Assembly: GCA_030637775.1 (NCBI GenBank)
Contig: DAOWFY010000128.1
Coordinates: forward strand, 1 to 17,520
DNA from: DAOVGU01 sp030637775 [NCBI: bacterium]
GTDB lineage: Bacteria > Ratteibacteria > UBA8468
Direction: 5' to 3'
Length of the DNA stretch: 17,520 nt
Shown: one piece after another, positions 15,769 to 16,616 of the stretch
Position numbering within the stretch: the stretch's first letter is position 1
Layout: every line of letters starts with the position of its first letter
Notes under the pieces: generated by a model
Seen by the model: the letters and a program-made list of their open reading frames with translations, nothing else
What the model was told of the DNA's origin: nothing
Databases searched by the model: none
Made by a program: the position numbers and the translations under genes

Positions 15769-15809
15769 CCGAGCCTTCCTAAAGTAGGCGATAAGCCGGG
15801 TTCTGTTTA

Positions 15810-15836
15810 TCCGCCTACGCTAAAAGCTTCGGCGGA
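15810..15836. repeat. TCCGCC...GGCGGA palindrome inside rnpB
   Basis: TCCGCC (15810-15815) and GGCGGA (15831-15836) flank an inner GCT-AAA-AGC hairpin. On the RNase P RNA strand it falls between ATGACCGTCC (P2 3' strand) and ACAGAACCCGGC (P4 3' strand), where other bacterial RNAs have only a few bases. I recall close relatives of this palindrome (with a GAAGCTTTAGC centre) as dispersed repeats in many uncultivated bacteria. It would add a hairpin to junction J2/4. Confidence 0.8.
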
Positions 15837-16018
15837 CAGGGACGGTCATTTCTCTGGGATGCCCATTGCTGGGCACCTCAAGCAGCCTACCCGAGAGATA
15901 TAGTTGCGGGTCAATCTCTCTTCTTGGCCTTGCTCCGGATGGGGTTTACATAGCCTTTTCAGTTACCTGAAAAAGCGGTGAGCCCTTACCTCACCATTTC
16001 ACCCTTACCCCAAAATTA

Positions 16019-16076
16019 GGGACACATCCCATTTTTTGTCTATCCACACAAAAAATAAAAAAATGGGATGTGTCCC
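16019..16076. repeat. 19-bp perfect inverted repeat at the P12 tip of rnpB
   Basis: GGGACACATCCCATTTTTT (16019-16037) and its exact complement (16058-16076) are separated by 20 nt. In the RNA this stem stacks beyond CCCCAAAA/TTTTGGGG (16085-16092 with 16008-16015), the base of helix P12. The GGGACACATCCC core is the kind of terminal sequence seen in repeats mobilised by single-strand (Y1-type) transposases, but no transposase is in the window, so that link is inference. Confidence 0.88.
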
Positions 16077-16220
16077 CTTTTTGTTTTTGGGGTGGTATCT
16101 TTTCTGTGGCACTTTCCTTCCCTTCGCAGGGAGCCGTAATTAGCGGCCATCCTTCCCGCGGGAGCCCGGACTTTCCTCCCTCCTATGTTCTTCGAAAACT
16201 TCGGAGGGCGACCATTTCGC

Positions 16221-16616
16221 CTACTTCAGGGCGGCGTTGGCTAAACGATCTGCTTCCTTATTCTCCGAATGACTAATCTGAAGAATCTCTATCTTTTTAA
16301 AACTCCTCTTTAGATGTTGTCCTAAAAGGAAAAACTGGGAAAGTAAATTATCCTTAATCCGATAGAGTCCATTCATTTGCTTAACAATAAGTTCGCTATC
16401 ACTGTAAAGAGAGACCTTATGCGCTTTTAGAATCAGAGCCTCTTGCAGTCCATAGATAAGAGCAAGATATTCAGCAACGTTGTTGGTGGCGATTCCAATA
16501 TATTTACCTACTCTTTTGATAGAAGCGCCTTTCTGATTATAGATTGCTATTCCGATACCTGCTCTCCCAGGATTGCCTTTTGCCGCCCCATCAACATAAA
16601 GTGTGAGTTCCTTCAT
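16221..16616 (-). CDS. rnhA: Ribonuclease HI family protein
   Basis: A 131-aa RNase H domain that cuts RNA in RNA-DNA hybrids. YVDGAAKGNPG at 7-17 carries the first catalytic Asp9, NNVAEYLAL at 45-53 gives Glu49, YSDSELIVKQMNG at 71-83 gives Asp73, and His116 with Asp123 (NKEADRLANAA) complete the active site. The basic handle of E. coli RNase HI is short or absent, as in the archaeal/Bacillus YpdQ-like branch. The ATG overlaps the stop of the upstream zinc-ribbon gene as ATGA, so translation is coupled. Its TAG stop (16223-16221) lies inside the 5' strand of the RNase P RNA P1 helix, so the two genes share sequence and probably a transcript. Confidence 0.95.
   Translation of the reverse strand: MKELTLYVDGAAKGNPGRAGIGIAIYNQKGASIKRVGKYIGIATNNVAEYLALIYGLQEALILKAHKVSLYSDSELIVKQMNGLYRIKDNLLSQFFLLGQHLKRSFKKIEILQISHSENKEADRLANAALK

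Follow-up and report, generated by a model that had tools for sequence, protein, structure and literature searches.

A dispersed palindrome as the probable source of helix P19 in the RNase P RNA of a Ratteibacteria bacterium

Results

We analysed a stretch of 17,520 nucleotides (nt; hereafter the window) on contig DAOWFY010000128.1 of the Ratteibacteria assembly GCA_030637775.1, which carries the RNase P RNA gene rnpB and, within that gene, a short palindrome at positions 15810–15836 of the minus strand. We put at roughly 80% the probability that this palindrome forms helix P19 in a class A RNase P RNA that is normal in other respects, and that it arose when a dispersed palindrome similar to repetitive extragenic palindromic (REP) elements inserted into the linker between helices P2 and P4. 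This reading is based on the position of the hairpin, its predicted fold, the exact sharing of its sequence across phyla, an empty site in a genome of the same genus combined with the rarity of such hairpins in the phylum, and strong matches to the same palindrome in three other rnpB genes, one each in P12, P3 and P19.

The covariance model RF00010 (bacterial RNase P RNA class A) covers the whole of rnpB, from 16227 to 15777 on the minus strand (model positions 1–367), with a score of 275.9 bits (E = 1.5 × 10−89) compared to a curated score of 100, and this full-length match with its conserved core assigns the RNA to class A. The fit, which had been proposed in an initial annotation of the DNA as a way of placing the insert, locates the hairpin in a long unpaired stretch separating the P2 3′ strand from the P4 3′ strand, the place of helix P19. 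That annotation had reported the hairpin between these two strands with both conserved blocks preserved, and this was borne out: the block containing the P2 3′ strand, ATGACCGTCC (15849–15840), and the block containing the P4 3′ strand, ACAGAACCCGGC (15806–15795), are intact on the minus strand. Its description of a 27-bp hairpin was right about the hairpin but not about its size, as 27 is the length in nucleotides, and the predicted RNA-strand fold has 8 + 3 base pairs flanking a 3 × 3 internal loop. With two outer pairs included, the predicted P19 helix extends over 15808–15838 (minus strand), and the 46-nt stretch containing it folds at −17.3 kcal/mol (z = −4.0), with 1 of 200 shuffles equally good. 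The palindrome, TCCGCCTACGCTAAAAGCTTCGGCGGA, occurs once in the window, and no match to it with up to three mismatches was found in 200 shuffles.

A 2026 study (PMC12974513) describes P19 as a helix of varying length that continues the stacking of pseudoknot P2 and has been lost sporadically. A hairpin at the P2–P4 site is thus not unexpected, contrary to the initial annotation, because the site is that of a variable and optional helix; the accompanying suggestion of a tolerated coaxial hairpin agrees with a site where the helix extends P2 stacking. We consider it very improbable that the hairpin is instead excised or cut to give a two-piece RNase P RNA, since the helix is short and lies at the known P19 site (PMC12974513), and since the RF00010 fit is full-length, although the 19-bp arms of a nearby insert in P12 could conceivably be a substrate for a double-strand RNase. 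An intron or excised spacer was also considered and rejected, as nothing pointed to it.

An RF00010 search for a second rnpB, likewise suggested in the initial annotation, found none in the assembly (1.40 Mb, 83.5% complete). The presence of two palindromes within one gene could be taken to mean that this rnpB is a decaying pseudogene gathering insertions. We rejected this explanation as highly unlikely, because the gene is the only copy found in this 83.5% complete assembly, its conserved blocks are intact and both inserts lie in variable helices.

We found that the sequence of the hairpin is shared well beyond the phylum, and it is this sharing, which the initial annotation had not noted, that makes the hairpin unusual. 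A pattern of 24 fixed bases with a gap of 0–5 nt, with the core TCCGCC-TAC-GCT...AGC-TTC-GGCGGA, to which the window hairpin conforms, matched exactly in 93 stretches in a search of 84,980 species genomes, compared to a chance expectation of about 0.01 by hand calculation. Record titles of the matches included Patescibacteria groups, Omnitrophota, Bradyrhizobium and other Proteobacteria, Bacteroidetes, Ignavibacteriales and others. Because the unpaired internal-loop positions TAC and TTC belong to the pattern, pairing alone cannot account for the match. When 97 dispersed copies were listed together with the window copy, the commonest form, TCCGCCTACGCTAAAGCTTCGGCGGA, accounted for 52 of 98 rows. 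A tail of CAAG (22 copies) or CAGG (9 copies) followed 31 of the 97 dispersed copies, and the tail of the window copy is CAGG. Read on the RNA strand, the dispersed palindrome has the form CYTG-TCCGCC-GAA-GC...GC-GTA-GGCGGA. Within 386 genomes from the phylum and other parts of the domain, nine had a copy that departs from the 26-mer by at most two mismatches, whereas a control search of these genomes with the reversed sequence gave none. In five genomes the palindrome follows a sequence that by eye resembles the 3′ portion of a tRNA gene, with TCCGCC overlapping the expected tRNA end.

The P2–P4 linker was measured in 54 rnpB genes, 29 from the phylum and 25 from outside it. RF00010 matched in 29 of 35 phylum genomes and the other six were not countable; G035 was omitted because its partial match fell below the cut-off. 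Six loci lacked an anchor at first pass, and relaxed anchors resolved three of them, all with short linkers, such that three of the 25 outside genes stayed unread. Within the phylum, the linker consists of a few nucleotides in 26 of 29 genes and holds a hairpin in three (the window, G002 and G019), while the readable genes from outside were evenly divided between those with a hairpin (11/22, two of them very small) and those with none (11/22). A very short linker, which the initial annotation had assumed for other bacteria, is therefore the rule in this phylum but not in general; a hairpin at the P19 site is unremarkable across bacteria at large but rare in this phylum. The window hairpin resembles the P19 described in PMC12974513 in its place between the P2 and P4 3′ strands, its variable form and its sporadic presence. 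It differs in that its sequence is shared with a dispersed palindrome and in that most rnpB genes of its phylum lack P19.

In G001, which belongs to the same genus and is identical to the window at 295 of 327 shared core columns, the linker is an empty site, ATGACCATT-TAAACAG, whereas the window has ATGACCGTCCCTG-palindrome-TAAACAG. G002, of the same family (283/327 core columns identical to the window), has ATGACCATCCCTG followed by a hairpin with altered letters and then TAAACA, such that a P19 hairpin occupies the same site with its letters changed and its pairing kept. This was the one probably homologous hairpin to compare for covariation in P19; two stem pairs had changed on one side with pairing kept (U-A to U-G and C-G to U-G), and the outer stem in this single comparison had no two-sided change. 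Because the site and the CCCTG prefix are shared, these sequences favour a single insertion event in the family that was later lost from G001, with two separate insertions as the alternative. On the contig that carries G001 rnpB, a copy at G001:C145:6808-6833 has TCCTCC...GGAGGA arms, in which both sides have changed such that they still pair.

An ordinary, vertically inherited P19 that resembles the dispersed palindrome by chance, or by convergence on a stable RNA hairpin, would fit the frequency of P19 outside the phylum and the recurrence of GC-rich hairpins: P19 hairpins of the form CCGCC..GGCGG occurred in 10 of the 386 genomes, and by eye 8 of the 10 are generic, with no further likeness to the palindrome. 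We nevertheless regard this explanation as unlikely, since all 24 fixed bases of the window hairpin, unpaired positions included, agree with copies in many phyla, its CAGG flank agrees with common tails, and the site is empty within the same genus.

We also assessed whether other rnpB genes contain the palindrome, using a covariance model (R2) built from 35 distinct dispersed 26-mers, none of which came from rnpB; at least five distinct listed copies were left out of training because of uneven ends or near-duplication. R2 was searched against 63 rnpB loci together with their flanking DNA (166,754 bases, E up to 5), and the rnpB of five further palindrome-bearing genomes (G163, G164, G165, G247 and G300) stayed outside the comparison. 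The 13 resulting rows corresponded to 11 places, all of them within rnpB. Within the subset of 54 loci that had been selected solely with RF00010, all 8 places were in rnpB, which makes up 14.2% of the bases. The loci numbered L230–L239 had been chosen by the CCGCC..GGCGG pattern, so the three matches among them (L234, L231 and L239), which RF00010 genes were confirmed to cover, are not unbiased. The strongest matches were in P12 of G004 (43.3 bits), P19 of the window (39.4), P3 of G008 (34.8), a genome of the same class as that of the window, and P19 of G369 (27.8), a genome from outside the phylum. Only these four carry weight, because a structured, GC-rich gene draws weak hairpin matches. 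A match in P12 of G019 (E = 0.014, 44-nt loop) is only suggestive, and the P3 hairpin of the window (16178–16208, minus strand) is possibly a diverged member of the same palindrome, with its stem altered on both sides and a similar internal loop, although its score is marginal (21.2 bits; E = 0.0021 when only the window was searched and 0.02 for the 63 loci). In rnpB of G008 (contig C212), a second palindrome of the same family is nested in the loop of the P3 palindrome, and in rnpB of G002 (contig C169) TCCGCC...GGCGGA stems occur in both P12 and P9.

The orientation of the matches was uneven. At all of the 8 best R2 places, the RNA strand reads in the GAA..GUA sense or nearly so, compared to 10 of 27 dispersed copies located between codirectional open reading frames (17 of 27 had the other sense on the gene strand) and 14 copies in the GAA..GUA sense against 17 in the opposite sense inside open reading frames. 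Of 10 rnpB hairpins tested, 8 were predicted to fold more stably on the strand that is used, the difference being 0.7 to 7.0 kcal/mol, and the same was true of the consensus. A 5′-GNA/5′-GNA loop is expected to form sheared pairs.

In the window genome (G000), R2 gave two matches at E ≤ 0.1 when 150 of 494 first-look candidates were scored; the rnpB copy was the better of the two, and the only other match found was on contig C62 (31.8 bits). There were 74 matches in G008, 33 in G004 and 42 in G369, with G000 and G369 having been picked for this genome-wide count in the knowledge of their rnpB hairpins. REPs form GTAG and CGTC super-families of 20–40 bp palindromes that are dispersed, occur in many phyla and in some cases lie within genes (PMC3733652). 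The palindrome described here is like them in size, dispersal, breadth of phyla and the occurrence of some copies inside genes. It differs in that the commonest flanks of the 97 copies were the tails CAAG (22), CGAG (16) and CAGG (9) and the heads CCCT (11) and AGCT (8), with neither GTAG nor CGTC among the 12 commonest 4-nt flanks, in the two matches in the host genome, which in the candidates scored fall short of the high dispersed copy number of a REP, and in having no Y1 transposase found beside a TCCGCC palindrome at the 30 loci inspected.

A second dispersed inverted repeat, with GGGACACATCCCATTTTTT arms, lies in the P12 loop of the same rnpB at 16019–16076, as placed by the RF00010 fit and a repeat search, with 19-bp arms and a 20-nt spacer. 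In the genome as a whole, 12 places with these arms were found, the rnpB P12 among them, and 10 of the 12 have the arms as pairs. Kinship between this repeat and the P19 hairpin was rejected because their sequences differ, in line with the initial annotation, which had called the two unrelated. P12 of G002 is TCCGCCACTAAATCAATGGCGGA, which differs by a single mismatch from another dispersed palindrome that was found in 6 of 35 phylum genomes, with several copies in G000, G001 and G003; in G002 itself, P12 of rnpB is the only copy found with up to three mismatches. Three relatives thus have three different P12 tips, two of which are dispersed palindromes. At two loci in G003, the palindrome family to which P12 of G002 belongs lies within a longer repeat, GTCATTGCGAGT...CGTGGCAATC. 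A 131-amino-acid open reading frame at 16221–16616 (minus strand), RNase HI-like by eye, overlaps the 5′ end of the rnpB model by 7 nt.

Discussion

The origin that we propose would begin with the insertion of a small, dispersed, REP-like palindrome into the short P2–P4 linker, where it may have been kept as P19, stacking on P2 and extending the P2 stack. If the hairpin does stack on P2, the ribozyme would therefore tolerate or use it. Copies may be retained only in variable peripheral helices, and probably with a preference for the orientation in which a purine-rich internal loop gives the steadier RNA rod. The rnpB copy would then have persisted while most other copies in the window genome were lost, and finding the rnpB copy to be the better of the two matches is as expected if copies decay genome-wide and the one in an essential RNA is kept.

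Several observations weigh against an origin by insertion of a mobile palindrome. The element is not high-copy in the window genome as far as seen, and neither a target-site duplication nor an exact insertion boundary could be demonstrated. Y1_Tnp was found in 23 of 35 phylum genomes, with two matches in the window genome, and at none of 30 Y1_Tnp loci (of 39 listed) was a TCCGCC...GGCGGA palindrome found within about 1.5 kb on either side where the contig allowed, which speaks against a link to RAYT transposases. The rnpB genes of G006 and G015, whose genomes bear the palindrome, had no R2 match. Taking intergenic space as the reference, the G004 and G008 matches represent only a modest enrichment; by a hand estimate that takes one-tenth of each genome to be intergenic, roughly 0.3 would be expected. 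The P3 matches of G000, G001 and G004 are weak on their own (E = 0.02, 0.095 and 0.14), and the three weakest R2 places (L231, L044 and L239) have little beyond the outer stem and the opposite sense. Furthermore, the eight best places may represent five or six events rather than eight independent ones, and P3 of G001 and P12 of G002 fold better on the opposite strand. Given the smaller number of events and the three reversed weak places, the orientation bias is a hint, not proof, of filtering by RNA structure.

P19, REPs and repeats in cyanobacterial rnpB are already known. The STRR repeats that lie in rnpB of heterocyst-forming cyanobacteria (Vioque 1997, as cited in PMC2858038) are similar in being repeats in an RNase P RNA gene, and differ in being, as the title indicates, short tandem repeats, not a palindrome, and in occurring in another phylum. 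Among open-licence papers searched by title, none was found that describes this palindrome, a palindrome serving as P19 or such an insertion in rnpB.

More tentatively, and at somewhat less than even odds, the peripheral helices of RNase P RNA in this phylum (P3, P12, P19 and perhaps P9) may have been repeatedly rebuilt from dispersed palindromes, filtered for orientation by the RNA structures that they form and preserved by an essential gene after being largely lost elsewhere. In the accretion model (PMC12974513), RNase P RNA grows by the stepwise addition of segments, which naturally raises the question of their source. If such rebuilding took place, the expansion segments of this ancient ribozyme would have a concrete origin at the molecular level. 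With an identifiable dispersed DNA palindrome as a helix of the catalytic domain, an empty site in the same genus and strong related matches in P3, P12 and P19 elsewhere, how such helices arise, are tolerated and come under selection can be tested directly.
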